From Rhodococcus sp. SGAir0479 (GTDB lineage: Bacteria; Actinomycetota; Actinomycetes; Mycobacteriales; Mycobacteriaceae): DNA of 64,000 nucleotides. The stretch spans positions 2,418,001 to 2,482,000 of the forward strand of contig NZ_CP039432.1 in the NCBI RefSeq assembly GCF_005484805.1. Direction: 5' to 3'. The notes under the pieces are model-generated. The model was not told the origin of the DNA. It ran no database searches and saw nothing but the letters and a program-made list of their open reading frames with translations. Positions 2,421 to 29,157 of the stretch are shown in pieces. Positions within the stretch are counted from its first letter, which is position 1; the number at the start of each line of letters is the position of its first letter. A program made the translations under genes and the position numbers.

Positions 2421-2497
2421 GCCTCCGTAGCTCAGTTGGATAGAGCAAGAGCCTTCTAATCTCTAGGTCGCAGGTTCGATTCCTGCCGGGGGCACCA
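2421..2497 (+). tRNA. tRNA-Arg (anticodon TCT)
   Basis: A full cloverleaf with 3' ACCA encoded. The 7-bp acceptor stem starts GCCTCCG and contains one T-G pair. The D arm (GCTC/GAGC) and T arm (GCAGG TTCGATT CCTGC) are regular. The anticodon loop is CTTCTAA, so the anticodon is TCT. The lowest anticodon-stem pair (31-39) is a C-T mismatch, which is unusual. The gene borders the low-GC island on its 3' side, a common integration arrangement, but I could not find a repeated 3' tRNA end marking the far border. Confidence 0.88.
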
Positions 2498-2537: not shown

Positions 2538-2783
2538 CTATTTGTGCCCCGACGAGGGTGACGTCGCGGTTGGGTAGCCCCCCGTCGTTGGGCCAGGCGT
2601 TCCGACGGTGGCAACCTGCGGCGCGCAATGCCGCCTTTGCTCCTCCTTGAGCAGGTCGAGGGGAATGGCCCCGACGTAGTGGGCCTGGAGCAGGCGGGTG
2701 CGCTCATTGGTTGTGCGTTGCTTCTGGGTAGCCAATCGCGCCGCTCTGCCTCGATCCGTGCGTGCGTCGCTGCAAGTCATCAC
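2538..2783 (-). pseudogene. Large serine recombinase, C-terminal remnant
   Basis: The readable frame contains NERTRLLQAHYVGAIPLDLL followed by KEEQRR. This resembles the conserved zinc-ribbon/coiled-coil stretch of large serine recombinases (typical pattern E..KLLqAHYagAiPldLLk.EQdRI). The frame then becomes unrelated (HCAPQVATVG...), and the catalytic N-terminal domain is absent in the upstream direction. It is therefore read as a decayed integrase fragment beside the tRNA-Arg, consistent with an old site-specific integration event. The match is from memory of the family. Confidence 0.6.
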
Positions 2784-2911
2784 TGGGTGGTTTCGCGTCG
2801 TGCTTCAGGCGTCAGCTGGATGACGCGGTACTCCGCGGCGACCAGGTCTTCGACCTCCACGATGCGAACCGCCTTCCGGGTGCAGTTGGTCAACCTTTCG
2901 TGGCGACTGGT

Positions 2912-3119
2912 GATGAGTTGCGTGCGGTCGATCTTGTATGGTCTGTCCGGAAAAACGTCACGGTCGACTGGCAGTACAGGGAGTCGGTCCGCGCAGCTGT
3001 GTGGACCTAGTCGCGCCGTTTGCTCCGAAATAGGACTTCCATCGGATCTTGAGGGCAGGGCGGTCGAGCTTGTGCTTCAGCAGACGGAACTCTTCGCGGA
3101 TGCAGGCGGGGGTATGTAG
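2912..3119 (+). pseudogene. Type I restriction endonuclease HsdR, C-terminal remnant
   Basis: Two frames carry successive parts of the HsdR C-terminal helical region. DELRAVDLVWSVRKNVTVDW then QYRESVRAAVW lie in one frame, ending at a TAG at 3008-3010. LEGRAVELVLQQTELFADAG lies in another frame, ending at 3119. In intact HsdR proteins these segments are contiguous (...VDWxxRExVRA...YPPDxxExAxxxVLxQxELL). Everything upstream, including the helicase and nuclease domains, is missing. No hsdM or hsdS is present. It is a relic of a restriction system in the island. Confidence 0.5.
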
Positions 3120-3158: not shown

Positions 3159-3515
3159 ATGGCTAATTGGGCGCAGTTCTGGGCGGTTGACATGCACGTT
3201 CATACGCCAGGATCTCAGAATGCAAAGAGCGAGAACTACAGCACACCCGCCGAAATTGTTCATGCGGCTATTGACGCCGGCCTGGACGCCATGGATCATC
3301 TAGAGGGTGGTGCCACGCCTTTCAAGCGACGCTCGTCGAAATTGAAGGTCTCGGTCATGTCTGTCTTGCGAGCAGATAGTGGCATCCACAAAGGACAGTC
3401 TCTTTGCGATTTCGCCGAATCGGCGGAGCCGACGCGACCAACTCAATCGGTCGACACTCACCTGAGGAGAAATGGCTATGACTGGCCCACCGGGCGGCAC
3501 CTACGAACGCAATGA
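3159..3515 (+). pseudogene. PHP-domain protein, truncated N-terminus
   Basis: A 118-codon frame with a good GGAGG site before the ATG. Residues 1-45 match the start of PHP-domain phosphoesterases: FWAVDMHVHTPGS with the metal-binding HxH, then AEIVHAAIDAGLDAMDH. The usual continuation (TDHN.. and the other metal ligands) is lost after that, and the rest shows no similarity I recognise. PHP proteins that begin this way are normally several hundred residues long and often carry an ATPase domain, so this is a truncated relic. Its stop lies inside the following ATPase gene, so a short peptide could still be made. Confidence 0.55.
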
Positions 3516-4716
3516 TGGGCACCTCATTAAAGTGCTGGAAGTACTCGATCAAGGCGAAGCCTTCTTAGGACGTACTTCCAATGGAAGTATTGCCCGGTTT
3601 TCGGTGGGGTCCGTAGCTGCTATAAACCGCGGTGATGTGATATTTTTCAGCGATCGAGGATGGGAGATCGCACCCCGAAGCGCCTGGCCTGAACTTCCTG
3701 AAGTCGCGATTGTTCGCCGGATTTTAGAAGACGGTGTACTGATAGAAGTAGGGTCAAGCATACGACTTCTTCCAGGGAAGCCAACAATTCAAGTCAGCGC
3801 CGGCAACACAGTACAGTTCAACGACGTCGATGGAATTACCAGGATTCTTCATGACTCGCCCGTTCGATACCGCGATTCCGGAGTCGATGACGATGGCCTT
3901 AACGAATACCTTGTTCAACTTGAAGAGGATGGGCCGGGGTTCGATTCGTTCGGCGGGTATCATCACGTACGCGATCGGGCCGTAGAGCTGATAGAAACAC
4001 AACTAAAGAATAGGGATCGCCTTCGCGATATCGGCGCGCGCCAGATGAAAGGCGTCATATTTTCAGGTCCGCCAGGAACTGGGAAGACCCATCTTGCGCG
4101 CATCATCGCACGGGAGTCTGGAGCGGCATTCTTTCTCGTAAGCGGTCCATCGATTGTTAGCAAGTGGGTGGGGGATAGTGAGGAAACTCTTCGCCGCATC
4201 TTCGAGGCCGCGTCCAGCGAGGATCGTGCGATAATCTTTTTCGACGAGATCGACAGTATCGCGGAACGCCGAACGAGTGACTCTCACGAGGCATCCAAGC
4301 GAGTCGTTGCTCAACTGCTGACACTACTCGATGGGTTTGATCAAAAATCGAGTAATGTAGTCGTAATCGCTGCAACAAACCGTATTTCAGATATCGATGA
4401 TGCACTGCTACGTCCAGGAAGGTTCGACTGGGAAATTTCGTTCGACTTACCGACCGCACAAGATCGCCATGAGATATTGGAAGCTAGCGCGCGAAATCTG
4501 GCAACACTAGACGATCTCCCAATTGCCGAGGTTGCCGCACTGACAGACGGGTGGTCTGCGGCTCGACTGAACTCTATCTGGACCGAGGCGTCGCTCGTCG
4601 CTGCTGGAGATAATCGAAGCTCTATTTCGGGCGAAGATCTGGCCCTAGCTTTCGAGCGCGTCGCTTCGAGACCGAGTCGAACCAGTAAGCAAGCGGAGGT
4701 AAGTCATGTCAATTAG
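3478..4716 (+). CDS. AAA+ ATPase (Cdc48/proteasomal-ATPase-like unfoldase), island gene 1
   Basis: A 412-residue single-ring AAA+ ATPase. Counting from the alternative ATG at 3472: two small beta-rich N-terminal modules fill about residues 10-130, reminiscent of the OB-type domains of Mpa/ARC proteasomal ATPases. The AAA domain follows. It has Walker A GPPGTGKT (199-206), an aromatic pore loop KWVGDSE (231-237), Walker B IIFFDEID (254-261), sensor ATNR (301-304) and arginine fingers in RPGRFD (314-319). A C-terminal helical lid completes it. All catalytic elements are present, so it should be active, probably as a protein-remodelling or unfolding machine. GAGGAG is better spaced for the ATG at 3478 than for 3472. 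The last 11 bases overlap the next gene, implying translational coupling. GC content is near 50%, unlike the chromosome. The substrate is unknown. Confidence 0.85.
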   Translation: MTGPPGGTYERNDGHLIKVLEVLDQGEAFLGRTSNGSIARFSVGSVAAINRGDVIFFSDRGWEIAPRSAWPELPEVAIVRRILEDGVLIEVGSSIRLLPGKPTIQVSAGNTVQFNDVDGITRILHDSPVRYRDSGVDDDGLNEYLVQLEEDGPGFDSFGGYHHVRDRAVELIETQLKNRDRLRDIGARQMKGVIFSGPPGTGKTHLARIIARESGAAFFLVSGPSIVSKWVGDSEETLRRIFEAASSEDRAIIFFDEIDSIAERRTSDSHEASKRVVAQLLTLLDGFDQKSSNVVVIAATNRISDIDDALLRPGRFDWEISFDLPTAQDRHEILEASARNLATLDDLPIAEVAALTDGWSAARLNSIWTEASLVAAGDNRSSISGEDLALAFERVASRPSRTSKQAEVSHVN

Positions 4717-6070
4717 GTCATGGTGGGCGGAATGGCGCCAAAGAAGATCCGAAACGAAGGATTTAAAGAAGAGTTCATCGCAGCGGCCCTTGCGCGAGTT
4801 TGTGTACCTTGATGAGGTCTCACTTCGCAGCCTCCTAACTTCCCAGAAAGATACAATTCCTGAGCAAGTGTCGCGAGCGATTTCACAGGCAGAGGAAGCT
4901 GAAGTTACGGGTAAGGTTGCAGCAGGCAACGATGTCTTGGGGAAGGCGGAGTTGGGCTCGCGCTTCAAGACTAGCAACTCTAACAATGTCCAGACATCAC
5001 GAAAAGCGATCGTTCAAACCCTCTTCAACGAATTGTATGACGATGCAAGCATTGAGTATGCAATTAAGGTATCGAAGGTAGCACCTAGACCGGCCAGCAA
5101 TGTTGATTCTGCCATTAAGCCAGTCGGTAGATACGGCGCAGTGCCGGCCAGTGTATTCACGCGCGGGACTCTCATCGAAGTGGAAGTGTCACTAGATGTA
5201 GACCCGGTATTCAAATTGAGAACCATGATGTCCGAGATTGAAGCGATGGCAAAAGAGTCCGGCGAGCTGTTTGGTTCCGCGGGGCAGGCTATGCTTCGCG
5301 AGGTCGGTCCGATGAACCAGTTTATTGAGCGCTTGCTCGCGGGCCTAATTCCAATTCGAGCGAAGGCAACTTCGCTGTCGGTGATCGAAGTCGATGGTCA
5401 GGAATATATCGTTGATAATAGAATCATCGATCAGATTGACGTCGTACGGCGCCCCCTTGAGGTTGTTGGCGTGACTGAGCATATTGGCTACTGGAAAGAT
5501 ATTCGTCGAGTTCTATTCTCATCGTCGAGGGTTAAAGTATTGTGCCGCGTAGCGCGAGACGGGATTCACCACCGTTGGACGCCAGTTAAACTTGCGCACT
5601 TGTTTAATGATGTTTCACCCGAACTCGCTGACCAGATCAACGAAGCTGGTCGCACTGGCATTTCCGGGCTTCGCGACTCCGGCGCAAGCGCTGATATCGG
5701 GGTGCTCCAGCAGGCTCTTCGGTTCTACCGGCAGGAGCTCGAGAAGGTCGCCGATGTCGAACTCGACGGAAAGGATCGAGACGAACTTGACGTTGAGCTG
5801 CAAGGTTTGAGTTCGGACGGGTCAACATCTTCGGTTCAGCGGCAGGCATTTGCGACAGTCTATCGCGCTGTGGCCGCAAAAAGCGGAAAGGAAGAACTTC
5901 TTAACCCGGACGCCGATCTTGCGGCAAGGAATTTCGCTCGTGCCTCGGCGGGGTTGTCGCTATCCCCAGCATTCGGTTCTCGTGTGGAAATCGCGACCCA
6001 TGAGACAGAGAGGTCAAGCGAGGCCGATAGTAGACTTCTCGATGTTGAGTTTGTGGCAATATACTGGTAG
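4706..6070 (+). CDS. DUF6414-like protein, partner of the AAA+ ATPase, island gene 2
   Basis: 454 residues with no signal peptide and no clear membrane segment. After a basic N-terminus (about residues 1-28) comes REFVYLDEVSLRSLLTSQ (30-47). Next is an Ala/Glu-rich helix, then SRFKTSNSNNVQTSRKAIVQ (85-104). This resembles the opening of DUF6414-family proteins as I remember them; the family has no assigned role that I know of. The rest mixes alpha and beta segments with a charged region around 370-395. The start follows GGAGG with a 6-base spacer. It overlaps the ATPase gene by 11 bases, so the two are co-expressed and probably form one system, with this protein as adaptor, sensor or effector. 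GC content matches the ATPase, pointing to joint acquisition. Function is not assigned. Confidence 0.75.
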   Translation: MSIRSWWAEWRQRRSETKDLKKSSSQRPLREFVYLDEVSLRSLLTSQKDTIPEQVSRAISQAEEAEVTGKVAAGNDVLGKAELGSRFKTSNSNNVQTSRKAIVQTLFNELYDDASIEYAIKVSKVAPRPASNVDSAIKPVGRYGAVPASVFTRGTLIEVEVSLDVDPVFKLRTMMSEIEAMAKESGELFGSAGQAMLREVGPMNQFIERLLAGLIPIRAKATSLSVIEVDGQEYIVDNRIIDQIDVVRRPLEVVGVTEHIGYWKDIRRVLFSSSRVKVLCRVARDGIHHRWTPVKLAHLFNDVSPELADQINEAGRTGISGLRDSGASADIGVLQQALRFYRQELEKVADVELDGKDRDELDVELQGLSSDGSTSSVQRQAFATVYRAVAAKSGKEELLNPDADLAARNFARASAGLSLSPAFGSRVEIATHETERSSEADSRLLDVEFVAIYW

Positions 6071-6090
6071 TCACTCGCTCGGAATGCACA

Positions 6091-6410
6091 CTATGGCAAC
6101 CAGGAAGTAGGCATGTCCGATACCAACGTCCACTCAACGGGATCGATAGCTTCGTCGCAGCGGGCGTAGTAGCGGCTAGTATTATAGGCCGCTGGGGTCG
6201 TTGTATGCACGCCCGCTCGCTTAGACACCTTGCCGACCGTGCTCGCTCCGAGGCCAAACGTCTTTCCAATACGTTTTGCCAATCTGCACCGTTGATCACC
6301 CCTCCCGGTAGTGCGCCGATGGTCTGACGGTGTATCCCGAATCGCTCGGCCAGCTCGTAGGCAGTTGCATTACGGCGATACCCGTCGACGAACTTGTCGA
6401 TCTCGGCAAG
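6091..6410 (-). pseudogene. Helix-turn-helix protein of recombinase-associated type, frameshifted relic
   Basis: The upstream frame reads LAEIDKFVDGYRRNATAYEL then AERFGIHRQTIG, a resolvase/invertase-type helix-turn-helix. After a frameshift near 6280 a second one continues as AKRIGKTFGLGASTVGKVSK then RAGV. Tandem HTH units of this pattern are common in small actinobacterial proteins near mobile elements. No single frame spans both, so it is treated as broken. It lies convergent to the AAA+/DUF6414-like pair. Confidence 0.45.
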
Positions 6411-6749
6411 CATCGGCCAGTGGTTCGACCGGACGGCGGTGGGCAAGCATTGCGTGGCCGCCGTCTCGGTGCCACCTGGAAGTGCCGGCACAACGCATTC
6501 CTCGTCGATTATTCGCCGGAACGAACTTTTCCGGTTTGAAATGGCTTCACGCAGGAGCACTCGCGCGAAGCCACTCGGGCCCGTCCCAGGGGACAGGTTC
6601 AACCTGAAGTTTCACCCGGTCGAACACTCGATTCCCCCACACCGGGCGTTACCGTCTGTAGGTCGCTCGACCTCGTAACCTGATCTCAGGGGGAATACCT
6701 AAACACGCACTCACGGACCGGCGGCAGCCGGCTTGGCCGCCGTCACCCT
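6411..6749. other. Island border region without a recognised gene
   Basis: About 340 bases with no frame I can support. The only structure seen is an 8-bp inverted repeat, ATTCCCCC at 6631-6638 and GGGGGAAT at 6689-6696. Base composition returns to the chromosomal level across this stretch, so the right border of the low-GC island probably lies here. I see no copy of the tRNA-Arg 3' end. Confidence 0.5.
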
Positions 6750-7042
6750 ATGTTCGTCCTCGCCGCGTGCCGGGATGATTCCGGTTCGCGGCGCCCGCAA
6801 CGACGACCAACAAGACCGCCGTCACGTTCGCGGCGCAGGCCCCGGCATCGAGTCGCTCGACGACGCCGCCTCCGACTCCTGCACCGGTTGCCCAAGAGAC
6901 CGCTCCCGCGCCTCGCGGCGCGCCTGCGCCGGTGGTGGCACCGGCGGCCGCGCGGGCAGCCGGCGCCGCGCCGATCTACCGCGGACAGCCCGGGTACGCC
7001 AGCAAGCTCGACCGCGACAACGACGGTGTCGCCTGCGGGTGA
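6750..7042 (+). pseudogene. Excalibur-domain lipoprotein, frameshifted
   Basis: The start ATG opens MFVLAAC, which looks like the end of a lipoprotein signal with lipobox LAAC. That frame soon becomes arginine-rich nonsense. A second frame continues sensibly as a Thr/Pro/Ala-rich linker (TTTNKTAVTFAAQAPAS, then PPPTPAPVAQE). It ends in YRGQPGYASKLDRDNDGVAC plus Gly and stop, a calcium-binding excalibur motif (DxDxDGxxC). A TGA in this frame just before the linker prevents reading from an upstream start. The gene is thus broken by a small indel near 6780, or the assembly has an error there. Confidence 0.55.
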
Positions 7043-7203
7043 GTCGACGGGCGCTCCGGAACGGGTCCACGGGTGAAATCCGAGGGTGAGACTCGCAGTT
7101 TCAGGCCTTTCGGCTTGTTCACCCCCAGCGGTCCTGAGCTAACGTTCACTTGTCACCTCGAGTGACACGGTAGGTACGTACCCCCGACTATGTGCCTACC
7201 GGC

Positions 7204-7241
7204 GCCGGCCGGTGGTGGCAGGGAAGTTGCCACCGGCCGGC
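7204..7241 (-). terminator. GC-rich hairpin, probable terminator
   Basis: A perfect 12-bp stem (GCCGGCCGGTGG / CCACCGGCCGGC) with a 14-base loop. It lies just downstream of the 3' end of the LysR relic on the minus strand. There is no clear T tract. Confidence 0.5.
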
Positions 7242-7254
7242 GGCCTAAAACCTC

Positions 7255-7729
7255 TCAGGTGTCCGGACTGGTCTCCGTCACGCGCCGCGCAGCCCGAGCC
7301 GTCACGAAGTCCCGCAACCTGGCGGCAGCGCCACCCCCAGCCCGTGCGGGCCGAGCGAATCGCAGCGTCTCGAATTCCGTGTTCTCGAACACCGCCCGAG
7401 GCGCGAATCCCGCTTTTGCGCACCACGACTCCGTCAACTGCCGCAGGTGGTACGACGTCGGATTCGCGATGGACGGTTCGTCGGCGACTTCGCTGAGAGC
7501 AATCCGGGTGCGCATGGCCAGTTGGTGCCCGGTCGCCACTTTCATTCGAATGTTCTTTTCCCCGAGCGGAATCGACGGTAGATCCCCGGGTGCCGGAATC
7601 ACCACGGCGAGTTCGAGACTCCCGTCGCGAACCTGCGCGGCCAACGCCCTCCCCGTGTGCCTGCACCAGATGTAGGCTCACCCGCGGTGCGGCGCGAGGG
7701 CGGCGCTCATCAGCAGCTCTCCCGAGCAC
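7255..7729 (-). pseudogene. LysR-family regulator, C-terminal relic with frameshift
   Basis: In one frame PRVSLHLVQAHGE is visible near 7650-7690. After a frameshift it continues as AAQVRDGSLELAVVIPAPGD and on to the C-terminus. Together these are the effector-binding domain of a LysR regulator, including the typical PxVxLxLxxG and VRDGxLxLAVV stretches and ENTEFETLRFA. The DNA-binding N-terminal domain is absent: the upstream terminator of the next gene begins at 7741. It is a truncated and frameshifted relic with no expected activity. Confidence 0.6.
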
Positions 7730-7740
7730 TAACCCGACGG

Positions 7741-7778
7741 AGCCCGGCCCGCCCCGAGGAACGGGGACGGGCCGGGCT
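7741..7778 (-). terminator. Strong hairpin terminator after the DUF4185 gene
   Basis: AGCCCGGCCCG at 7741-7751 pairs with CGGGCCGGGCT at 7768-7778, and the inner CCCCG/CGGGG extends the stem. It lies 22 bases past the stop of the DUF4185 gene. Confidence 0.75.
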
Positions 7779-7800
7779 CGTCGGGAAACGGGCGCTCGCT

Positions 7801-9219
7801 CTAGTTCTCGGGCGCCGGGGTGAATCCCTCGGGCGTCGAGAAGCCCTGGAGTCGCTGTTCACCGGTGGCGGCGGGATCGGGGCGGTCGACGGGGTCGGTG
7901 GCCGCGACGCGCATGCCGCTCAGGTCCGTGCGCATGTAGATCACGTTGTAGCGATCCCACGTGGTCAGCACGAAGTACAGATTGCTGTCACCGTTCCGGT
8001 TCGACCACGGATGCATGAAGCCGCCGTACAGCGACGGCAGGGTCGCCGACCCGATGAGCGTCTGCGAGCCGCTCCACGGACCCCACGGGTTGTCGGCCTG
8101 GCGGATCTTCAGTCCACCCGTGTCCGTGTACATCGCGAGGTACTTGCGCAAGTACGGATTCCACTGCACCGACAGCTCGCTCACCGACGACCCGATGACG
8201 GGCTCGGCGTCGGTGATGGTCGCGGACCAGTCCGATCCGTTCCAGTACTCGTACTTGCCGGGATCCACGATGTCGGCGTTGTTGGCCGGCACACGGGCGA
8301 GTCGAGCGGCCCCGGAACGCCCTGACGGCGTACCGAATTCGTAGACGTAGCCGTCCCCGCGATCCGGGACGAAGGCGCTCATCTGCCAGTTCGCGTTGGC
8401 CGACGAGAACGCCGGAATACCGTCGATCCCCAGGCCCTGCAAATTGGTACGGACCGTGGCCAGATCGGTGTTCCACGTCTCGCCGTTGTCGGTCGAGACG
8501 GCCATCCCGGAGTAGTTGGTGGTCCACTCGCCGGGGGTGTCCCACGACCGAACGGACATCCACCGCACGTACTGCACCCCGTCGACCGCGACACCACCGG
8601 TCGGGATGACGGTGAACTCGACGGGGCTGCCCGGCGGCAGGTTGAGCAGGCCGGCGATGACCTGCCGCGAGAAGTTCGTGGTGCCCGGCGCGAGCGGCGA
8701 ACTGTCGATCCGCATGCCGTCGGACAGTGCGGTGTCGGCACTGCGGAACAGCACGTTGCTGCGCCACTGGTCGCCCTCGATCCCGCAGTCGCCGACGGTG
8801 TCGCCGAACAGCATCATCACGTCGTGGTCGGCGCCCTCCTTGCCGTTGTCCCACATGATGCCGAGGTCGGTACCGGCGACGCTGTACTTGTCGATGGTCT
8901 TGTTGGGACTGCCCGGGCCGGTCACCATCTCGAGGGCCTTGGTCTTGCCGGACAGCACCGGCAGGGCGCCGTTGGGCGCGCCGGTGATCCACGGCAGCGA
9001 ATTGGCGAGCGAACCCGTCGCGCCGCCGAGGCTGCCGGCCCCCAGGCTTCCCATCACGCTTCCGGTCAACCCGGAGCTGCCGAGGCTTCCGGAACTGCCG
9101 AAGTTCTGGCCGCACGGCCCACCGGCCGCCGATGCGGGCGTGGCCATCGCCACGGACAGACCCGCGGTCACCGCGGCCGCCGACACCGCGGCGGCCCACC
9201 TCCGATTCGCTTGCCTCAC
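7801..9219 (-). CDS. Secreted DUF4185 protein, probable GH183-type endo-D-arabinanase
   Basis: 472 residues with a clear Sec signal peptide: basic start MRQANRR, hydrophobic core and cleavage near ATPASAAGG (about residue 32). A Ser/Gly/Leu-rich low-complexity stretch follows (about 40-70). The DUF4185 beta-propeller domain has MWDNG, MMLFGDTVGD, TNYSGMAVSTDNGETW, VQWNPYLRKYLAMYTD and YFVLTTWDRYNVIYM. DUF4185 members from mycobacteria and their phages have been shown to cut the D-arabinan of arabinogalactan and lipoarabinomannan (family GH183). A role in cell-wall arabinan remodelling is therefore inferred; activity on this protein is not proven. It is a lone gene, followed by its own terminator and divergent from gdhA. 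Confidence 0.75.
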   Translation of the reverse strand: MRQANRRWAAAVSAAAVTAGLSVAMATPASAAGGPCGQNFGSSGSLGSSGLTGSVMGSLGAGSLGGATGSLANSLPWITGAPNGALPVLSGKTKALEMVTGPGSPNKTIDKYSVAGTDLGIMWDNGKEGADHDVMMLFGDTVGDCGIEGDQWRSNVLFRSADTALSDGMRIDSSPLAPGTTNFSRQVIAGLLNLPPGSPVEFTVIPTGGVAVDGVQYVRWMSVRSWDTPGEWTTNYSGMAVSTDNGETWNTDLATVRTNLQGLGIDGIPAFSSANANWQMSAFVPDRGDGYVYEFGTPSGRSGAARLARVPANNADIVDPGKYEYWNGSDWSATITDAEPVIGSSVSELSVQWNPYLRKYLAMYTDTGGLKIRQADNPWGPWSGSQTLIGSATLPSLYGGFMHPWSNRNGDSNLYFVLTTWDRYNVIYMRTDLSGMRVAATDPVDRPDPAATGEQRLQGFSTPEGFTPAPEN

Positions 9220-9560
9220 AGAGTGCGCCCTTCCGTCGTTCGATCGAGGGAGGCAATCCGCACGGTCCGCCCGCGGTCCCCCCGAGGCTCTTCCGTAAAG
9301 AGCAAACCATGGACGTTCCGCCCACGGGTATCACCACTCCGGCGCAGGGGGCTCCGAGACCGACCCGAGACCACGACACCACGCGTCACCAGGGTCTTCT
9401 CGACGGTTCACCGGGCGGGGTCGGCCGCGTTCTTCGCATCCGTGTAACAGACTGTTTACACGTGGCTAATCTCACTTTCCGCAGGTAACCGTCGAAGTCG
9501 AGGGCCCTCGCGGACTATCGTGTAACAGAAAGATTAATAACTTCTCACGGAATCTGGTAG
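9220..9560 (+). promoter_or_regulatory. Divergent intergenic region between the DUF4185 gene and gdhA
   Basis: This 341-base gap carries two copies of CGTGTAACAGA, at 9441-9451 and 9519-9529. The first copy lies within an inverted repeat CGTGTAA (9441-9447) / TTACACG (9456-9462). The core reads GTAAC, six bases, then TTTAC, which fits the AC-N9-AC half of actinobacterial GlnR boxes. The second copy keeps only GTAAC. GlnR control of glutamate dehydrogenase is plausible but inferred. Confidence 0.4.
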
Positions 9561-10910
<1,350 letters not shown>

Positions 10911-10923
10911 TCGAGCTTCACCG

Positions 10924-10968
10924 AAAGGTCGGGCCCGGCACCTGCGACAGGTGCCGGGCCCGACCTTT
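10924..10968 (+). terminator. Bidirectional hairpin terminator after gdhA
   Basis: A 20-bp perfect stem beginning AAAGGTCGGGCC and ending GGCCCGACCTTT, with a 5-base loop. It sits between the convergent gdhA and the minus-strand small gene at 10980, so it can serve both. Confidence 0.85.
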
Positions 10969-10979
10969 GCAGTACTGCG

Positions 10980-11192
10980 TCAGCCTTCGTCGGCCGCCGC
11001 GGGTTCGCCGTCCTCACGTGCCTTCCGGGCGGCCTCGCGCATCTCGATACCGTCGGTCACCCAGTCCCCCACTTCGCGGGTGACGTCCCGGACCGCGCCG
11101 GCGATGATCACTGCGATCCTGCCGACGTGCGTGGCCGCGGACTCGGTGAGCTCCTGCACCGTGTCCTTACCTCGTTCGAACTTCCCCACCAT
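10980..11192 (-). CDS. Small conserved-looking protein of unknown function
   Basis: 70 residues: MVGKFERGKDTVQELTESAA, then an amphipathic to hydrophobic helix HVGRIAVIIAGAVRDVTREV, then a charged tail EMREAARKAREDGE. I do not recognise a family. It could associate with the membrane through the single AVIIAGAV helix, too short for a confident transmembrane call. An alternative start at 11210 overlaps the desaturase stop as ATGA, which would couple the two. It lies directly downstream of the desaturase on the same strand, so it may be the last gene of that operon. Confidence 0.6.
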   Translation of the reverse strand: MVGKFERGKDTVQELTESAATHVGRIAVIIAGAVRDVTREVGDWVTDGIEMREAARKAREDGEPAAADEG

Positions 11193-11206
11193 GTTCGACG
11201 CGCCTC

Positions 11207-12397
11207 TCATGCAGCGGTTTTCCGATGCTCGACGATAACACCGCGAGCGGGCGTCCGGCCGACGAGCGACGGCGGCAGGGCCAACCGGAAGATCTTGGCC
11301 CACACCGTGCCGATCTGGTGGAAGAAGCCACCGGTGTTGTACGGCAGGCCGTAGCGTTCGCACAGCTCACGCACCCGCGGCGCCATCTCCGGATAGCGAT
11401 GCGCCGGGATGTCCGGGAACAGGTGGTGCTCGATCTGGTGCGACAGGTTGCCCGACATGATGTGGAACAGCGGGCTGCCCGTGATGTTCGCGCTGCCGAG
11501 CATCTGCCGCAGGTACCACTGCCCCCGGGTCTCGTTCTCGGTCTCCTCCTCGGTGAAACTCTGTACCCCCGAAGGGAAGTGGCCGCAGAAGATGATCGAG
11601 TACGCCCAGACGTTGCGCACCACGTTCGCGGTGGCGTTGCCCAGCAGCGTCGAGACGAACATCGGCCCCGACAACACCGGGAACAATACGTAGTCCTTGA
11701 GGACCTGCCGCCCGGCCTTGCGCCACCAACCCTGGACCAGCGGCCGGACGTCCGCCCAGCGGCGCTTGCCCTGAACCACGTTCTCGGCCTCGAGGTCGTG
11801 GAGCATCACGCCCCACTCGAACAGGAACATCAGCGCGGTCGCGTACAGCGGATTGCCCAGGTAGTAGGGGTTCCAACGCTGCGCCTCGTCCATTCGCAGG
11901 ATGCCGTAACCGATGTCCCGGTCCCGACCGACGATGTTGGTGTAGGTGTGGTGCATGTAGTTGTGCGAGTGCTTCCACTGGTCCGCGGGACACACCGTGT
12001 CCCACTCGAACACTCGCGAGTTCAGGCCCGGCTCACGCATCCAGTCGTACTGGCCGTGCATGACGTTGTGGCCGATCTCCATGTTGTCGAGGATCTTCGA
12101 GATCGACAGGGCACCCACACCGGCGAGCCAGAACGGCGGCAGGAAGCCGAGATACATCAAGCCACGACCGGCGACCTCGAACCCCCTCTGCGCTTTGATG
12201 ATCCGGTAGATGTATTCGCGGTCGGCGGCACCGAGGTCGGCGACGACCTCCGCCCGCAGCGCGTCGAGCTCACGCCCGAGCGCCTCGACGTCGTCGTAGT
12301 CGATCACCGTGAGGTCGCCCGCGGGTTCGGGATCGCGTCCACCGAACCGCAGGAACCCGGGCATCGAGAGGAAGCCGGGAAGGCTGAGTCCGAACAT
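11207..12397 (-). CDS. Membrane fatty acid desaturase (DesA3-like acyl-CoA delta-9 desaturase)
   Basis: 396 residues. It has the three histidine clusters of membrane di-iron desaturases: HNVMHGQYDWM, HSHNYMHHTYTN and HQIEHHLFPDIPAHRYPE. Hydrophobic stretches lie between them (GFLPPFWLAGVGALSISKIL; ALMFLFEWGVML; VLFPVLSGPMFVSTLL). It should introduce a cis double bond into acyl-CoA or acyl chains at the membrane using electrons from a reductase. The gene just upstream (12429-13514) encodes a flavin/2Fe-2S reductase, the same pairing as M. tuberculosis desA3 (Rv3229c) with Rv3230c. A TetR gene is divergent from the pair. Start ATG with AGGAGG nearby. Chain-length and position specificity are inferred. 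Confidence 0.88.
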   Translation of the reverse strand: MFGLSLPGFLSMPGFLRFGGRDPEPAGDLTVIDYDDVEALGRELDALRAEVVADLGAADREYIYRIIKAQRGFEVAGRGLMYLGFLPPFWLAGVGALSISKILDNMEIGHNVMHGQYDWMREPGLNSRVFEWDTVCPADQWKHSHNYMHHTYTNIVGRDRDIGYGILRMDEAQRWNPYYLGNPLYATALMFLFEWGVMLHDLEAENVVQGKRRWADVRPLVQGWWRKAGRQVLKDYVLFPVLSGPMFVSTLLGNATANVVRNVWAYSIIFCGHFPSGVQSFTEEETENETRGQWYLRQMLGSANITGSPLFHIMSGNLSHQIEHHLFPDIPAHRYPEMAPRVRELCERYGLPYNTGGFFHQIGTVWAKIFRLALPPSLVGRTPARGVIVEHRKTAA

Positions 12398-12428
12398 GGG
12401 TTGTCCTCCTTCGAGTGGGCCGGACGGG

Positions 12429-13514
12429 TCAGACGTCGATCTCGACGTCGCCCACCGGCGCGGAGATGCACAGCTGGATCGGTTGGTCCGGGTCGTCGTG
12501 CGTGTCGCCGGTGAGGATGTTGCGAGTCCGGCCGGACCGCTTCACCGCCGTGCACGAGAAACAGATCCCCATCCGGCAGCCGTGCTCGGGTTGCAGGCCC
12601 GCCGCCTCGGCCTGTTCGAGCAGGCTCCGCCCCGAGTCGTCCGCCGCCACGCCGCTGCGGGCGAACGAGACCACACCACCGGTGGGGCCGGCGGGAACGA
12701 CCGGTGCGATTCGGAAGCGTTCGGTGTGCATCTGTTCACCGAAACCATCGGCGTCGAGCAGCTCGCGAACGGCCCCCGACAGCGTGTCCGGACCGCACAC
12801 GAACACCTCCGACGCGGGCCCGAACCACGGCGCCACCTCGTCGAGGTGCGCGCGCCGGAAGCGGCCCTCGGCCGCCGTCTCCACGATCCGGACGGTCACG
12901 TCGCCGCGCGTCTCCGCACGGTCCCGCAGCTCGGCGAGGACGGGCACGTCGTCGAGCGTGCGGGTGTAGTGCAGGAACGCGACCGGGCCTGTGAAGCCCT
13001 CGTCGCGCAGGGTGCGCAGCATCGACAGCACCGGGGTGATCCCGCTGCCGCCGCTGACCAGGACGACCTCGCTCGGGCGGCGGCGAGGCAGCACGAATTC
13101 GCCTGCCGCCGCGGAGAGGTCGACGACCATGCCGACGGCGGCGTGCCGCACGAGGTACTGCGAGACCAGCCCATCCGGGTGCGCGCGCACGATCAGTTCG
13201 ACCGTGCTCCGCCCGCCGGACTCCGCCCCCACCGGGGAGTAGCACCGGGTGTGGCGCACTCCGTCGATCACCACGCCGACCTGGACGAACTGCCCGGCCC
13301 GGAAACCGCGCCACTGACGGGTGGGGCGGAGTTCGAGCACGACGGAGTCGGCGGTGGGGCGGTCGACCCGCACGATGCGGGCACGCGTCTCGCGGGCCGT
13401 CACCATGGGGTCGAACAGCTCGAGGTACCGGTCGACCGCGTGCGGGGTCGCCAGCGCCTCGACGAGCGACACGATGGGACGCAGCACGGCGGAAGCGGGA
13501 GAACTCGTCGTCAT
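12429..13514 (-). CDS. Ferredoxin reductase-type electron donor for the desaturase (Rv3230c-like)
   Basis: 361 residues. An FAD domain (RCYSPVGAE near the flavin site) comes first, then an NAD(P) domain (VLVSGGSGITPVLSMLR, VFVCGPDTL). A C-terminal plant-type 2Fe-2S domain has cysteines in HGCRMGICFSCTAV and IQLCISAPVGDVEIDV. The order FAD-NAD-2Fe-2S matches Rv3230c, which passes electrons from NADPH to the DesA3 desaturase. The open frame has upstream starts, but AGGAG with a 6-base gap points to the ATG at 13514. It is 31 bases upstream of the desaturase start, in the same operon. Confidence 0.88.
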   Translation of the reverse strand: MTTSSPASAVLRPIVSLVEALATPHAVDRYLELFDPMVTARETRARIVRVDRPTADSVVLELRPTRQWRGFRAGQFVQVGVVIDGVRHTRCYSPVGAESGGRSTVELIVRAHPDGLVSQYLVRHAAVGMVVDLSAAAGEFVLPRRRPSEVVLVSGGSGITPVLSMLRTLRDEGFTGPVAFLHYTRTLDDVPVLAELRDRAETRGDVTVRIVETAAEGRFRRAHLDEVAPWFGPASEVFVCGPDTLSGAVRELLDADGFGEQMHTERFRIAPVVPAGPTGGVVSFARSGVAADDSGRSLLEQAEAAGLQPEHGCRMGICFSCTAVKRSGRTRNILTGDTHDDPDQPIQLCISAPVGDVEIDV

Positions 13515-13539
13515 GATCATCTCCTCACGCGGGACTTTC

Positions 13540-13566
13540 AGTGCACAGTCGTACACTGATTAGTGT
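13540..13566. promoter_or_regulatory. Putative TetR operator, overlapping palindromes
   Basis: Two overlapping inverted repeats lie between the reductase gene and the divergent TetR gene. One is AGTGCACAGTCGTACACT (13540-13557, imperfect); the other is ACACTGATTAGTGT (13553-13566, 5-bp arms). Their place and symmetry suit autoregulation and control of the desaturase operon by the adjacent TetR protein. This is inference. Confidence 0.5.
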
Positions 13567-13652
13567 GAACGCGGTTACCCCATACCTGTCAATCCCGGTC
13601 GAGAGTGATGCCGGTCACGCGGCAGGTGATCCACGTGCCTAGACTCGACGCC

Positions 13653-14282
13653 GTGACCGAACCGGTGGAGACGCGTGCGCAGCGCAAGGAGCGCACGCGC
13701 CAGGCGTTGCTGGAGCGCGCACTCGAACTCCACGCCGATCGCAGCTTCGCGAGTGTGAGCCTGCGGGAGGTCGCGCGGGCCGCGGGCATCGTGCCCACCG
13801 CGTTCTATCGGCACTTCGCGTCGATGGACGAGCTCGGGGTCGCACTGGCGGAGGACAGCATGCGGGTGTTGCGACGCCTGCTGCGCGACGCGCGCCGCAC
13901 CCCGAGCGCGACCACCGCCCGGGCCTCGCTCGACATCCTCGTCCGGCAGGTGCACGCCCACGAAGCCGAGTTCCGGTTCGTGGCCCGCGAGCGCTACGGC
14001 GGCATGCCCGAGGTCCGCCGCGCCATCGCCACCGAACTGCGCCTGTTCGTCAGCGAACTCACCGTCGACCTCGGGCGCATGCCCGCACTGTCTCACTGGG
14101 AGGTCGAGGATCTCGAGATGGCCGCCGACCTCATCGTGCAGACGATGCTCGGCGCGGTCGTCGACCTGCTCGACGCGAATCGCCCCGGCTCGTCCGAGGA
14201 ACGCGCCGTGATCGCGCGCACAGAGAAGCAGTTGCGCCTGATCATGATCGGCATCGGCGGCTGGAAACCCGCGCACCCGTAG
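13653..14282 (+). CDS. TetR-family regulator, probably of the desaturase operon
   Basis: 209 residues from GTG. The TetR helix-turn-helix is clear: RTRQALLERALELHAD, SVSLREVARAAGIVPTAFYR, HFASMDELGVAL. The larger C-terminal half forms the ligand pocket and is not assignable. In-frame starts at 13605 and 13635 would add up to 16 residues; the GTG before TEPVETRAQRK gives the usual short lead before the HTH. The gene is divergent from the desaturase-reductase pair with palindromes between them. By analogy with DesT-type regulators it may sense acyl-CoA or fatty acids, but that is inferred from context. Confidence 0.8.
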   Translation: MTEPVETRAQRKERTRQALLERALELHADRSFASVSLREVARAAGIVPTAFYRHFASMDELGVALAEDSMRVLRRLLRDARRTPSATTARASLDILVRQVHAHEAEFRFVARERYGGMPEVRRAIATELRLFVSELTVDLGRMPALSHWEVEDLEMAADLIVQTMLGAVVDLLDANRPGSSEERAVIARTEKQLRLIMIGIGGWKPAHP

Positions 14283-14303
14283 CCGTTCCGCTACCGTGGC
14301 GCC

Positions 14304-15148
14304 ATGACTGCCGAATCACGCGCCGACCGAGTTCGCCTGGGCGAACTGACTTTCGACGTCACCGTCGCGGGGCCCGACGACGGCACACCGATCGTCCTGC
14401 TACACGGCTTCCCGGAGACCTCGGCGTCGTGGCGTCCGGTCACACCTCGCCTCGTGGGCGCCGGCCTGCGGGTGATCGCGCCCGACCAGCGCGGCTACTC
14501 CCCCGATGCCCGGCCGGCCCGGGTGGAGGACTACCGGTTCGACCGCCTGGTCGGCGACGTCGTCGGACTACTCGACGCGTACGGCCTCGAGGCAGCCCAC
14601 CTGGTGGGCCACGACTGGGGGCCGCCGTCGCGTGGCAGGTCGCCGGCAGTCACCCGGATCGGATCCGCAGCCTGACTGCGGTCTCGGTGCCGCACCCGGC
14701 GGCGCTCGGCTGGGCGCTGCGCGAGGACGCCGATCAGCAGCGCCGGTCGAGTTACATCGGCCTGCTCCGTACCGAGGGGAAGGCGGAAGACGTTCTCCTG
14801 GAGGACGGCTCACGGCGCCTGCGGGCGATGTTCGGCGACGGCATCGACCCCGCACTGGTGGAGGAGCACCTGCGTCGGCTGTCCGAACCGGGCGCGCTCA
14901 CCGCGGCGATGAACTGGTACCGCGCGATGGACCGGGAGTTCGGCCAACTGCCCTCGGTCCGGGTGCCGACCACCTACGTGTGGAGCACTGCCGATCCCGC
15001 GCTCGGCCCGGCGGCGGCCAAACGTTGTGGCGAGTTCGTCGATGCGCCCTACCGTTTCGTCGTGCTCGACGGCGGCAGCCACTGGATCCCCGAGGAGCAT
15101 CCGGACGCGCTCGCCGACGCGGTTCTCGCCCGCGTCGCGCAGGTCTGA
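14304..15148 (+). pseudogene. Epoxide-hydrolase-like alpha/beta hydrolase with a frameshift
   Basis: The first frame gives HGFPETSASW (oxyanion HGxP), DQRGYSPDARP and VGHDWG, the nucleophile-elbow Asp of epoxide hydrolases and haloalkane dehalogenases. It is then lost to a stop near 14675. The family continues in the next frame: AVAWQVAGSHPDRIRSLTAV, VPTTYVWSTADPALG (acid) and GGSHWIPEEHPD (catalytic His). The switch falls in a run of five G at 14617-14621; six G would restore one frame of about 281 residues. All catalytic residues survive across the two frames, so this is either a recent inactivation, phase variation, or a sequencing error in the G run. The ATG at 14304 follows the TetR gene closely. 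Confidence 0.8.
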
Positions 15149-15155
15149 GGGCCGC

Positions 15156-15725
15156 TCACACGCGGAGCAGCACCTCGAGCTCGTCGACGACGGCGTCGAG
15201 CGGCGTCGACGTGCCTTGCGCCTGCGCCAGCACGAGTGCCCCCTCGAGGGCGCTGACGACCAGCACCGACAGGGCCGTCGACCGCTCCTCGGCCACGCCG
15301 TCCTCGATCAGGCTCGCGGCGATCGACTCGCACCACTGGGTGAAGGCCACGCCCGCGACCTGGCGGGCACCGCGCTCGGTGCCCAGCGCGGCCGCGACGA
15401 TGGGGCATCCGGCGGCGTATCCGGAGGCCTCGAGTCCACGGCGCCACAAGCCGACCAGCGCCCGTAGCGCCGAGACGGTGTCGCCGGAGCCGAGGACCCG
15501 CGCCACGCCGCGACCGAGCTGATCGGCCGCCGCTCGCGTCGCCTCCTCGACCAGCTGCGACTTGCCGCCGGGGAAGTGGTGGTAGATCGAGCCGCGGGGC
15601 GCGCCGCTGTGCGCCAGGACGTCCGCGAACGACGTGGCCGCCACGCCCTGTTCACGGATCAACGCGACCGCACTGTCGATCATCGCGGCACGCGGACCGC
15701 TGCCGGGCTCGTGTCGCCTCGCCAT
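15156..15725 (-). CDS. TetR-family regulator (LmrA/YxaF-like)
   Basis: 189 residues. The HTH reads AALIREQG-type entry, then SFADVLAHSGAPRGSIYHHF and PGGKSQLVEEA. The pattern GAPRGSIYHHFPGGK and the C-terminal GCPIVAAAL are typical of the LmrA/YxaF branch of TetR regulators. The ATG at 15725 is preferred over one at 15740 because GGGAGG sits seven bases upstream. It is divergent from the thioesterase gene, with a GTATG-N4-CATAC palindrome between them. It probably represses that gene and itself. Confidence 0.85.
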   Translation of the reverse strand: MARRHEPGSGPRAAMIDSAVALIREQGVAATSFADVLAHSGAPRGSIYHHFPGGKSQLVEEATRAAADQLGRGVARVLGSGDTVSALRALVGLWRRGLEASGYAAGCPIVAAALGTERGARQVAGVAFTQWCESIAASLIEDGVAEERSTALSVLVVSALEGALVLAQAQGTSTPLDAVVDELEVLLRV

Positions 15726-15766
15726 GTCCCCACCTCCCACTGCGCATGGTTGCCGCTCGGTTCTAT

Positions 15767-15780
15767 GTATGTTGTCATAC
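15767..15780. promoter_or_regulatory. Putative operator of the LmrA-like TetR regulator
   Basis: The palindrome GTATGTTGTCATAC (5-bp arms, 4-base centre) sits between the divergent TetR and thioesterase starts. Its place is right for an operator controlling both genes; binding is inferred. Confidence 0.5.
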
Positions 15781-15813
15781 TTAAAACCGGATTGTCACCC
15801 GTCAGGAGTCGTC

Positions 15814-16641
15814 GTGACCCAGATCGCCGCCCCCACCCATCCCTTCGACGCGGCCGTCGAGCTCACCGCTCGGACGGGCGCACCCGACGCCTACCGGGGC
15901 CACACCTCCCCCGCCTACGCGAACATGGTGGGCCCGTTCGGAGGCGTCACCGCCGCGACCCTGCTGCGGGCGATCCTGCAGCATCCCGAACGCCTCGGTG
16001 AGCCGCTGTCGCTGACCGTGAACTTCGCGGGGCCGATCGCCGACGGTGAGTTCGAGGTGACCGCCCGTCCCACCCGCACCAACCGGTCGACGCAACACTG
16101 GAACGTCGAGCTCGTGCAGGACGGCGCCGTCACCACGACGGCCACCGCGGTGTTCGGGCGCCGCCGCGAGACCTGGGATTCCACCGAGATCGCCGCCCCG
16201 CCGGCACCGTCGGCGCACGACGTTGCAGTACACGAGTTCCCGGACTTCATCGCGTGGGCCCGCAACTACGAACTGCGCTTCGTCGAGGGTGCGGTGCCCG
16301 AGCCCGACGCCGGCGCTCAGCCGGGATCGACCAGCACGCTGTGGGTGCGCGACAACCCCCCGCGGCCGCTGGACTTTCCGGCGCTGACCGCCCTGTGCGA
16401 CGTGTTCTATCCCCGGGCGTTCCTGCGGCTGGGTCGCTACCTGCCCGCGGGCACGGTGTCGCTCACGGTGTACTTCCATGCGGACGCGACCCTCCTGGCC
16501 GCCCAGGCCGACGACGCCGTTCTCGCCACCGCCCGTGCGCAGCGGTTCGGCAAGGGCTACTTCGACCAGTCCGGCGAGATCTGGGGCCGCGACGGAGCCC
16601 TGCTCGCCACCACGCACCAGCTGGTCTACTTCAAGGACTGA
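15814..16641 (+). CDS. Acyl-CoA thioesterase-family protein (double hot-dog)
   Basis: 275 residues from GTG with CAGGAG before it. The N-terminal half has the TesB-like hot-dog signature: NMVGPFGGVTAATLLRAIL, then SLTVNFAGPIADGEFEVTAR and RTNRSTQHWNVEL. The C-terminal half repeats the fold (LTALCDVFYPRAFLRLG; VSLTVYFHADATLL; GYFDQSGEIWGRDGALLATT). It should hydrolyse acyl-CoA thioesters, substrate unknown. The open frame runs upstream into the divergent TetR gene, but only from GTG 15814 does it look like protein. Probably controlled by that regulator. Confidence 0.8.
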   Translation: MTQIAAPTHPFDAAVELTARTGAPDAYRGHTSPAYANMVGPFGGVTAATLLRAILQHPERLGEPLSLTVNFAGPIADGEFEVTARPTRTNRSTQHWNVELVQDGAVTTTATAVFGRRRETWDSTEIAAPPAPSAHDVAVHEFPDFIAWARNYELRFVEGAVPEPDAGAQPGSTSTLWVRDNPPRPLDFPALTALCDVFYPRAFLRLGRYLPAGTVSLTVYFHADATLLAAQADDAVLATARAQRFGKGYFDQSGEIWGRDGALLATTHQLVYFKD

Positions 16642-16653
16642 TCCGTCGGCCGG

Positions 16654-17997
16654 TCAACCGGGGAGGCCCTCGGCATCCCGCTCCGGCGCCCGGACGGCGA
16701 GCAGGGCGGCCAGGCCGACCCCGAGCACGACCAGCAGTCCCACGATCCCGGCGCGGTCGGCGCCGAACCACCAGGCGAAGAACCCGAAGAGCGTCGGTGC
16801 CAGGAACGACACCGCCCGCCCGGTGGTGGCGTACAACCCGAACATCTGCCCCTCGCGCCCCGGCGGGGTGAGACGGGCGAGGAACGTGCGCGCCGAGGAC
16901 TGCGCCGGGCCGACGAACAGGCACAGCAACAGCCCGAAGACCCAGAACATCGCCGGACCGGACACCGCCAGCAGCACCACCCCGACGGCAAGCATGGCGG
17001 CCAGCGACGCCACGATCACCACCTTGGGGCCGATGCGGTCGTCGAAGCGGCCGGCCACGATCGCCCCCAGCGCGGCGACCACGTTCGCGGCGACACCGAA
17101 CAGCAGCACGCTGTCGGACGCGAGCCCGTACACGTTGACCGCCAGCACCGCACCGAACGTGAACACACCGGCCAACCCGTCCCGGAAGAGCGCGCTGGCG
17201 ATCAGGAAACCCACCGTGCGGCGGTCGACGGCCCACAGTTCGCGCACGTCCCGCCACAGCACCCGATAGGACTCGACGAACCCGGCGCGGGCGGCGCCGG
17301 GATCGGCCGCGGTGCGCGGCGCCTCGGGGACCATGAGCAGCACCGGCACCGCGAACACTGCCAGCCACACCGCGGCCAACAGCGCCACCAGCCGGATGTT
17401 GAGGCCTCCGTCGGTGGTGATGTCCAGGAACCCGCGGGTGGGGCCGTCGCCGGCGATGAAGCCGAGGTAGCACACGAGCAGCAGCACGATCCCACCGAAA
17501 TATCCCATTGCCCAACCGAACCCGGATACCCGGCCGATGTTCTCGGGCGTCGATACCTGCCGCATCATGGCGTTGTACGGCACTCCCGCGAGCTCGAAGA
17601 TTACCGACGCGAATCCCAGCAGGACCAGACCCAACCACAGGTAGTGGTAGTCGTCGACGACGAAGAACATCGCGGCCATCGCCGCTACCGTCGAGAACGT
17701 CAGGACGGCGAGGGAGCGCTTGCGGCGGCCCGTGGCGTCGAACCTCTGACCGCTGACGGGCGCGAGTACCGCGATGAAGAAGCCGGCGATGCCGAGGGAC
17801 CACCCGAGCCACGTGCTGGCCGATACCGTGCCCGGCAGATCGTCCCCCACCGCATCGGTGAGATAGACCGAGAAGACGAAGGTGAGCACGACGGCGTTGA
17901 AGGCGGCTCCGCCCCAGTCCCACAGCCCCCACGCCGCGACCTGACGGCGGGTCGACGCCCTCCCGATGCCCGCCTCGCCCACCAGTTCCGCACTCAT
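16654..17997 (-). CDS. MFS transporter of the UMF1/Atg22-like group
   Basis: 447 residues and about 12 hydrophobic segments. The start WGLWDWGGAAFNAVVLTFVF is the hallmark of the UMF1 subgroup of major facilitator proteins. Later parts include GQRFDATGRRKRSLAVLTF (the loop 2-3 motif) and ARTFLARLTPPGREGQMFGL in the second half. The subgroup has loose links to export of small molecules or amino acids; no substrate can be read from the sequence. In-frame starts further upstream have no coding character; ATG 17997 gives the normal cytosolic N-terminus. It is convergent with the thioesterase gene, 12 bases away. Confidence 0.8.
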   Translation of the reverse strand: MSAELVGEAGIGRASTRRQVAAWGLWDWGGAAFNAVVLTFVFSVYLTDAVGDDLPGTVSASTWLGWSLGIAGFFIAVLAPVSGQRFDATGRRKRSLAVLTFSTVAAMAAMFFVVDDYHYLWLGLVLLGFASVIFELAGVPYNAMMRQVSTPENIGRVSGFGWAMGYFGGIVLLLVCYLGFIAGDGPTRGFLDITTDGGLNIRLVALLAAVWLAVFAVPVLLMVPEAPRTAADPGAARAGFVESYRVLWRDVRELWAVDRRTVGFLIASALFRDGLAGVFTFGAVLAVNVYGLASDSVLLFGVAANVVAALGAIVAGRFDDRIGPKVVIVASLAAMLAVGVVLLAVSGPAMFWVFGLLLCLFVGPAQSSARTFLARLTPPGREGQMFGLYATTGRAVSFLAPTLFGFFAWWFGADRAGIVGLLVVLGVGLAALLAVRAPERDAEGLPG

Positions 17998-18565
17998 GAG
18001 GGTGAGCCTACGGAGTGGGGACGGGCCCGGCGGCCGCGCCGCGACCCGTGGCGCGCCGCTCCCGTCGCATATGCCCCCGGGTACCGGAATAACGAAAATC
18101 CGGCCGCGTATCAAATTTCTTCGAATAACTCGATTGCAAGGTCGGAATTCCGGTTCGACGATTCCTGCTGTTACACTGCGTCACAACCGATGGGAATGCG
18201 TCGACCATTCTGCGCACACACTGCGCGGGCACCCGACCGGGAACGCGTCGACCACAGTGCACGAATCGCGACCACCCGCGTTTCGTGCACACACGCGCGC
18301 CTGTCGTCGTAGGCAACTCCTGCGCCGACGAGCGCTGTGCGCCGTCACGGCCCCGTCGGTCCACGAGCCGCGTCGAGGGACATGACCCGCTCGGGCCGAA
18401 CAGCTTTCACCCCCTTCAGCGGCGCACGCCGCCGCACCGCGGGGCCTCGACTGCCGGCCGCCCGCCCGCAGCTGGCGGGGCTTCCACGGCGCCCCTCGAC
18501 GTCGCCTGCTCGCATCGAGATTTCGCGACCCGAAAAAACGCGAATAAATGTCAAGGAGGTAACGA
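17998..18565 (+). promoter_or_regulatory. 568-base intergenic region upstream of the symporter, with repeats and a hairpin
   Basis: There is no supported gene here. It holds a direct repeat, GGGAAYGCGTCGACCA, at 18192-18207 and 18239-18254. A long stem-loop follows: GTGCACGAA (18257-18265) pairs with TTCGTGCAC (18282-18290), and an inner CGCG/CGCG pair extends it. These lie about 280-370 bases before the symporter start. They may be a regulator site plus a leader hairpin, or a terminator. An AAGGAGG ribosome site is at the 3' end, before the symporter ATG. Confidence 0.45.
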
Positions 18566-29058: not shown

Positions 29059-29080
29059 CGCTAGATTGCTAGCACGGCTG

Positions 29081-29153: not shown

Positions 29154-29157
29154 CCGA

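Follow-up and report, generated by a model that had tools for sequence, protein, structure and literature searches.

Among the described systems closest to the gene pair considered here is Dodola, which also consists of two overlapping genes encoding a DUF6414 protein and an AAA+ ATPase. In one study, Dodola protected against every streptococcal phage tested and its integration led to a growth delay; its mechanism and abortive phenotype are listed there as "Unknown" (PMC12322248). Another paper, whose naming of the two proteins is inconsistent, predicts a hexamer similar to Clp ATPases for one Dodola protein and notes weak matches to DNA/RNA-binding proteins for the other (PMC11514479), and a third assigns dolB to PF07724/PF10431 and describes solitary Dodola genes as consistently present across metagenome genomes (PMC10924106). 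The pair described here lies in a stretch of 64,000 nucleotides (nt) of Rhodococcus sp. SGAir0479 (NZ_CP039432.1, positions 2,418,001 to 2,482,000), referred to as the window, and comprises an AAA+ ATPase gene followed by a gene for a long-form DUF6414 protein, the partner. We propose, with moderate confidence, that the two genes form an uncatalogued, probably horizontally moved immune module, which is Dodola-like but has a different, proteasome-type motor.

Architecture and co-inheritance of the gene pair

Both genes lie on the + strand (open reading frames (ORFs) 3472/3478-4716 and 4706-6070). As stated in the first-pass annotation, which was made from the sequence alone, they are intact and overlap by 11 nt (3478-4716; 4706-6070). 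Conservation in the ATPase refers to an alignment of 60 rows, window included, and aa denotes amino acids.

3478..4716, + strand: AAA+ ATPase gene, 412 aa from the ATG at 3478 (414 aa from the ATG at 3472)
3511..3855, + strand: N-domain, predicted to be tandem OB-like, residues ~12-126
4066..4089, + strand: Walker A, GPPGTGKT, Lys and Thr invariant in the 60 rows
4159..4176, + strand: pore loop 1, SKWVGD, the second residue of KWVG being aromatic (Trp, Tyr or Phe) in 59/60 rows
4231..4254, + strand: Walker B, IIFFDEID, Asp and Glu invariant in the 60 rows
4405..4428, + strand: arginine-finger segment, LLRPGRFD, both arginines invariant in the 60 rows
4706..6070, + strand: long-form DUF6414 partner, 454 aa, PF19952 with expectation value (E) 5.8e-50, residues 29-453
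4706..4795, + strand: basic N-terminal tail of the partner by net charge, often with tryptophan
6056..6067, + strand: C-terminal A-x-Y-W of the partner, end of the last beta strand (443-453; predicted local distance difference test (pLDDT) ~96)

The GGAG at 3466-3469, read by eye, suits a start at the ATG at 3478 better than at 3472. The ATPase is built from a predicted tandem-OB N-domain and one classical AAA module, with PF00004 (AAA; E 4.5e-44) dominating over PF07724, which scores 21.3 bits and stays below its cut-off of 27. The Walker A and B motifs, the arginine fingers and the pore aromatic are kept as the first-pass annotation had claimed, and the sensor-1 Asn is invariant in 60/60 aligned ATPases. 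The best NCBIfam models are PAN, FtsH and CDC48, every one far below its cut-off, and PADLOC matches are limited to IetA, TRIP13 and one MADS model. In the structure model, the best match of the predicted tandem-OB N-domain is the mycobacterial proteasomal ATPase Mpa, which strengthens the earlier reading as a threading machine. Judged from sequence and model, the ATPase carries the parts of a threading unfoldase, namely a predicted tandem-OB domain, a classical AAA domain and an aromatic pore loop.

The description of the partner as DUF6414-like was correct, and DUF6414 is its sole Pfam match at E up to 1; what had been overlooked is that DolA from Dodola belongs to DUF6414 as well. No PADLOC family matches the window partner. 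Its structure model (m01a399ad6a60, 454 residues, pLDDT 84.6) contains strands within residues 32-282, a last strand at 443-453 and long helices, with helices at 295-415. The partner alignment and tree comprise 63 rows, the window and 62 of the 79 scanned loci described below, picked for complete frames. The first ~30 residues carry a net charge of at least +3 in 60/63 rows (window included; median +7), and the A-x-Y-W terminus is present in all 63. Proteasome activators end in a hydrophobic-Tyr-X (HbYX) tail, which A-x-Y-W resembles. An HbYX-like role was not adopted as the leading reading, since the motif ends a confident core strand in the model and the family extends to organisms in which a proteasome would not be expected.

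When the species-genome collection was scanned with a pattern for long DUF6414 proteins, 86 relatives were obtained, the best 80 of which (79 loci) were retained; with nine loci from plasmids or whole genomes, 88 loci were analysed, representing 86 distinct records (L005 equals L065 and L013 equals L075). An ATPase of the same kind lies directly upstream of the long DUF6414 gene, on the same strand and at most 193 nt away, in 87 of these 88 loci, where the first-pass annotation had named rare co-occurrence as the outcome that would speak against a system of two genes. The single exception is L113, whose partner gene itself starts at the contig end. L066 has an ATPase truncated by the end of its contig. 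The two genes overlap by 4 nt in 40/87 loci, counted with first-start-codon frames, and the 11-nt overlap of the window recurs in L037, L041, L042 and L046. In two loci (L048, L071), the DUF6414 gene is intact and the ATPase gene next to it is divided between two frames, through decay or sequencing error. Among plasmids, 24 records match, and the ATPase gene is upstream in 15/15 of the annotated neighbourhoods opened, eight of which are among the 88 loci, and one more (L157) shares its record with L111. Within the phylum, the ATPase N-domain profile matches 3/396 genomes (own included), each with a long DUF6414 gene, which itself occurs in 4/396, own included. The distances of ATPases and partners correlate with a Mantel r of 0.90 over 60 loci, to which shared ancestry contributes, and 0/2000 permutations were as high. 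On these sequence comparisons, the ATPase and the long DUF6414 protein are one inherited unit.

Insertion site, distribution and neighbouring genes

The low guanine-cytosine (GC) content noted in the first-pass annotation extends over the gene pair, with 52-53% in 1-kb windows from 3501 to 6000 compared with 63 to 73% in 1-kb windows outside the dip (up to 2500; 6501 to 20000). The pair had also been placed in a transfer RNA (tRNA) island among relics of other genes, three features of which are given here.

2421..2497, + strand: tRNA-Arg (TCT) at the left border of the variable stretch, where the relatives' matches stop at 2495-2505
2762..3007, + strand: type I restriction R subunit relic, C-terminus, PF11867 with E 2.6e-5 and 24.2 bits (cut-off 26.8)
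3159..3512, + strand: truncated TrlF/PHP-type gene, N-terminus only, NF045780 with E 1.4e-5, residues 5-44

The score of NF045780 is far below its cut-off, as expected for a fragment. The relics of a restriction subunit and of a PHP protein were thus recovered, but the third, a serine recombinase, was not confirmed, as the single frame checked (5904-6602, - strand) gave a weak helix-turn-helix match with E 0.03.

Both the tRNA-Arg and the gene to its left were matched in 12/14 genus genomes (own included), the remaining two (G011, G013) giving the tRNA-Arg match alone, and the full gdhA gene of the right flank is present in the same 12. The distance between the tRNA-Arg and gdhA markers ranges from ~2.0 to 31.5 kb among these genomes and is 7.0 kb in the window, calculated from coordinates. 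In BLAST comparisons with the site in the 11 relatives (12 loci), matches stop at 2495-2505 and resume between 7745 and 7922, the sole match in between being 7325-7691 in one relative. The stretch with the gene pair is missing from the tRNA-Arg site of the 11 relatives, and this site is an insertion hotspot. At the same tRNA-Arg, G005 carries a 28-kb element (L148-L149, G005:C20:47700-79600) with a tyrosine integrase and a resolvase, which lie between the tRNA and a near-identical 45-bp copy of its 3' end 28 kb off. The best candidate for an attachment repeat in the window is a 76% match of 25 nt within the ATPase gene, judged to be chance, and promoters and terminators in the window are not clearly above shuffles (3 vs 2.0 and 2 vs 3.5). 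Elsewhere in the window (28986-29155), two tandem tRNA-Lys (CTT) genes lie 21 nt apart.

The refuting alternative of conserved core loci with a housekeeping role, also raised in the first-pass annotation, is not what the distribution presents: in the genus, the long form occurs in 1/14 genomes (own included) and any DUF6414 in 2/14, next to the few phylum genomes named above. On the partner tree, Actinomycetota are interspersed with Pseudomonadota, Chloroflexota, Acidobacteriota and Ignavibacteriota, a pattern that fits transfer, although several rows are metagenome bins. Members occur in Alphaproteobacteria, Ignavibacteria and Chloroflexi, and haloarchaea also carry the pair, some copies on plasmids. 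The nearest relative of the window partner is L037 from Klenkia, with 53%. The module is patchy in its distribution and was probably moved horizontally. No carriage by phages was found among 50,697 phage records, and of the 48 IMG/VR stretches that fitted the pattern none encodes a relative. Haloferax volcanii also carries the DUF6414 family, and a decaying long DUF6414 copy interrupted by TAG lies at G261:C39:8897-9729.

Restriction genes recur upstream of the pair. In L037, L041, L042 and L056, HsdR stands upstream on the strand of the pair and is separated from the ATPase by one YgjP-like gene (a 125-aa frame in L041/L042); HsdR belongs to a type I operon of HsdM, HsdS and HsdR in L041 and L042, and a type I operon is also present in L056. 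A YgjP/SprT-like metallopeptidase gene is found near HsdR and the pair in L037, L041, L042, L056 and L057. In L046, a type III Res gene is directly upstream. Within the well-supported group of the window partner, 4/7 relatives have a restriction gene upstream (L037, L041, L042, L046), and none was detected by these tests in L038, L040 and L047. The pair trails a restriction operon in its nearest relative and some others, and a relic of the operon remains in the window. The annotated plasmid neighbourhoods include SIR2, HEPN, HNH, DUF262, DUF1156, SNF2, McrC, PD-(D/E)XK and PIN genes, integrases and transposases, though this does not hold for all of them, none of these gene kinds appearing by annotated name in L006.

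A proposed immune module and its alternatives

For a wider view of the neighbours, 275 ORFs were collected by a fixed rule, 13 loci were dropped by hand (near-duplicates, contig ends, close relatives), and the nearest neighbour on each side with at most 1000 aa was kept, so that 114 of 121 proteins were analysed. At E 1e-10 or better, 203 PADLOC models matched among these 114 neighbours compared with 52 among 114 control ORFs (of 117, from 11 stretches of 10 phylum genomes, the genome of the window supplying two of the stretches). The first-pass annotation had proposed a check for co-occurrence near integrases or defence genes, and the neighbours are richer in defence and mobile genes than this control; the excess is indicative, because models and not proteins were counted and the control is small, from other genomes and unmatched by organism. 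The commonest neighbour models, among the matches listed, include GajB, RTasHel, PtuA, type I REase, Old and AriA, and the control models are mostly PD-T4-6 and MADS. In Pfam, which was applied to the neighbours only (n=114), phage integrase (4), ResIII (4), UvrD (3), resolvase (2), HSDR_N (2) and Mrr (2) were found.

Most likely, the pair couples a controller driven by ATP to a DUF6414 effector. Six ATPase subunits would assemble into a ring, whose OB collar would grip a polypeptide and pull it through the pore, and the DUF6414 protein would be the client or the controlled partner of this ring. In the resting state, the ring would keep the partner inactive, until an infection cue alters its hold. 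The freed partner may then act as an effector on membrane or nucleic acid via its basic N-tail and possibly an OB-like core, and either phage multiplication or the cell would be halted. The AAA motor would be exchangeable between subtypes, a ClpB-like DolB in Dodola and an Mpa-like ring here, with DUF6414 kept. A variant that we put forward only tentatively is a separate immune system of bacteria and haloarchaea, in which a proteasome-less, Mpa-like tandem-OB unfoldase drives or restrains a dedicated DUF6414 effector and which is sometimes layered onto restriction-modification loci.

The link to Dodola runs through the wider family. PF19952 as a whole occurs in 24/396 phylum genomes. Among the 22 loci other than intact long forms, with 1.5 kb inspected where the contig allowed, two (L023, L033) have a short DUF6414 gene followed by a second gene, and PADLOC names the two DolA and DolB; these DolA proteins match PF19952 with E 1.5e-24 and 3.3e-7, respectively. 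Many genomes (L003, L014-L034) have a short DUF6414 gene with no Walker A protein within 1.5 kb. Ten such short proteins gave an hhalign probability of 97.7 against the long form compared with 1.3 against the two DolA sequences.

A number of points weigh against a Dodola-like immune module. The role in anti-phage defence is one that we infer. In one study, the strain-specific systems, Dodola among them, affected the tested phages only minimally (PMC11514479). The two loci named are the only ones of the 22 with a Walker A protein next door. The PADLOC models of DolA and DolB match neither window gene, and that of DolA also gives no match to the partners of L004 and L009. Compared directly with DolA, the partner reaches E 4.2 in BLASTP and an hhalign probability of 7.1 against the two sequences, yet in register at the YLDE motif, so that the DolA link depends on the Pfam model; a haloarchaeal ATPase matches DolB only at E 0.007. 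The fold search with the partner was without a match at E <= 0.001, and the fourth carrier in the phylum (G261) is a broken copy with no N-domain match. By models, gene order and motor, the pair is not a member of Dodola as far as sequence can tell, but it is related to it through DUF6414. For the defence or stress module suggested in the first-pass annotation, adjacency, patchiness and neighbours stand in its favour, while one relic remained unconfirmed and most other DUF6414 genes inspected are without an adjacent ATPase.

A protein quality-control or stress module, in which an AAA unfoldase works with a DUF6414 adaptor and has no immune function, is unlikely: the nearest kin of the AAA domain are Cdc48, PAN and FtsH and the annotation of L006 and L007 shows no evident defence genes, save a helicase and a recombinase in L007, but the scatter over 1/14 genus and 4/396 phylum genomes and the carriage on plasmids, often beside recombinase and restriction genes, speak against it. 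PrrC is a restriction-linked guard that stops the cell, and the pair could similarly sense the inhibition of a restriction enzyme and then halt the cell. This would suit the HsdR genes one gene upstream in L037, L041, L042 and L056, a further HsdR in L057, the HsdR relic in the window and the type III Res gene in L046. As HsdR lies within the fetched flank in 5/88 loci, by a model derived from four of the five, this layout is not a general one, and we rate this guard as somewhat less probable still. That the ATPase is an accessory feeder for the 20S proteasome, in the manner of Mpa or PAN, is hardly credible, although the Mpa-like tandem-OB model would point to it: a penultimate Tyr is found in 0/60 ATPases, the window model has no helix before the first OB strand, and most of the groups to which the alphaproteobacterial, ignavibacterial and chloroflexal members belong are not known to have a 20S proteasome. 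Improbable, though less so than the feeder, is a stability module of the toxin-antitoxin kind serving a mobile element, with a toxic DUF6414 protein that the ATPase would neutralise. The translational overlap, the carriage on plasmids, the joint inheritance and the delayed growth with integrated Dodola (PMC12322248) fit it, but an antitoxin in the form of a large ATP-driven ring would be unusual.

Comparison with known systems

That DUF6414 is found paired once more, here with another kind of AAA+ machine, suggests a common principle in which an AAA ring acts on its DUF6414 partner. The pair offers a compact system for probing it, the mechanism of Dodola being given as unknown (PMC12322248). 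If true, the reading would place an Mpa/ARC-type unfoldase in bacterial immunity, including groups without a proteasome. To our knowledge, such unfoldases are known solely from proteasomes. In the open literature searched, DUF6414 does not occur by name, no unfoldase tied to anti-phage defence or a defence island was found, and nothing that looked related tied PAN to a phage and defence system. Since the partner has no PADLOC match and the ATPase matches only IetA, TRIP13 and MADS, surveys with those models miss or misname the pair.

IetAS resembles the pair as a two-gene system with a classical AAA ATPase, and the PADLOC IetA models match the AAA domain with 129 bits. However, the IetA equivalog NF042959 covers the AAA region with 112.3 bits against a cut-off of 510, and IetS, the protease partner in IetAS, is not matched here, the adjacent gene being DUF6414 alone in Pfam. 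Mpa/ARC shares a tandem-OB N-domain (by prediction), a classical AAA domain and an aromatic pore loop with the window ATPase, and PAN likewise an OB N-domain (again predicted), a classical AAA domain and the aromatic pore loop. TIGR03689 reaches 121.6 bits against a cut-off of 504.75. The N-terminal coiled coil of Mpa/ARC is absent, with 13 helix-free residues before the first strand in the window model. The docking tail of Mpa/ARC to the proteasome has a penultimate Tyr, and this C-terminal motif of proteasomal ATPases is absent from the ATPase rows, while the adjacent DUF6414 partner is a feature of this pair, unlike Mpa/ARC and PAN. From Dodola, the pair differs in gene order, as the DUF6414 gene comes first there (L023, L033) and the ATPase gene here, in the motor, which is a ClpB-like AAA_2 protein in DolB and a classical AAA protein with predicted tandem OB here, and in the partner, which has 262-275 aa in L033/L023 compared with 454 aa, a helical insert and a basic N-tail in the pair described here.

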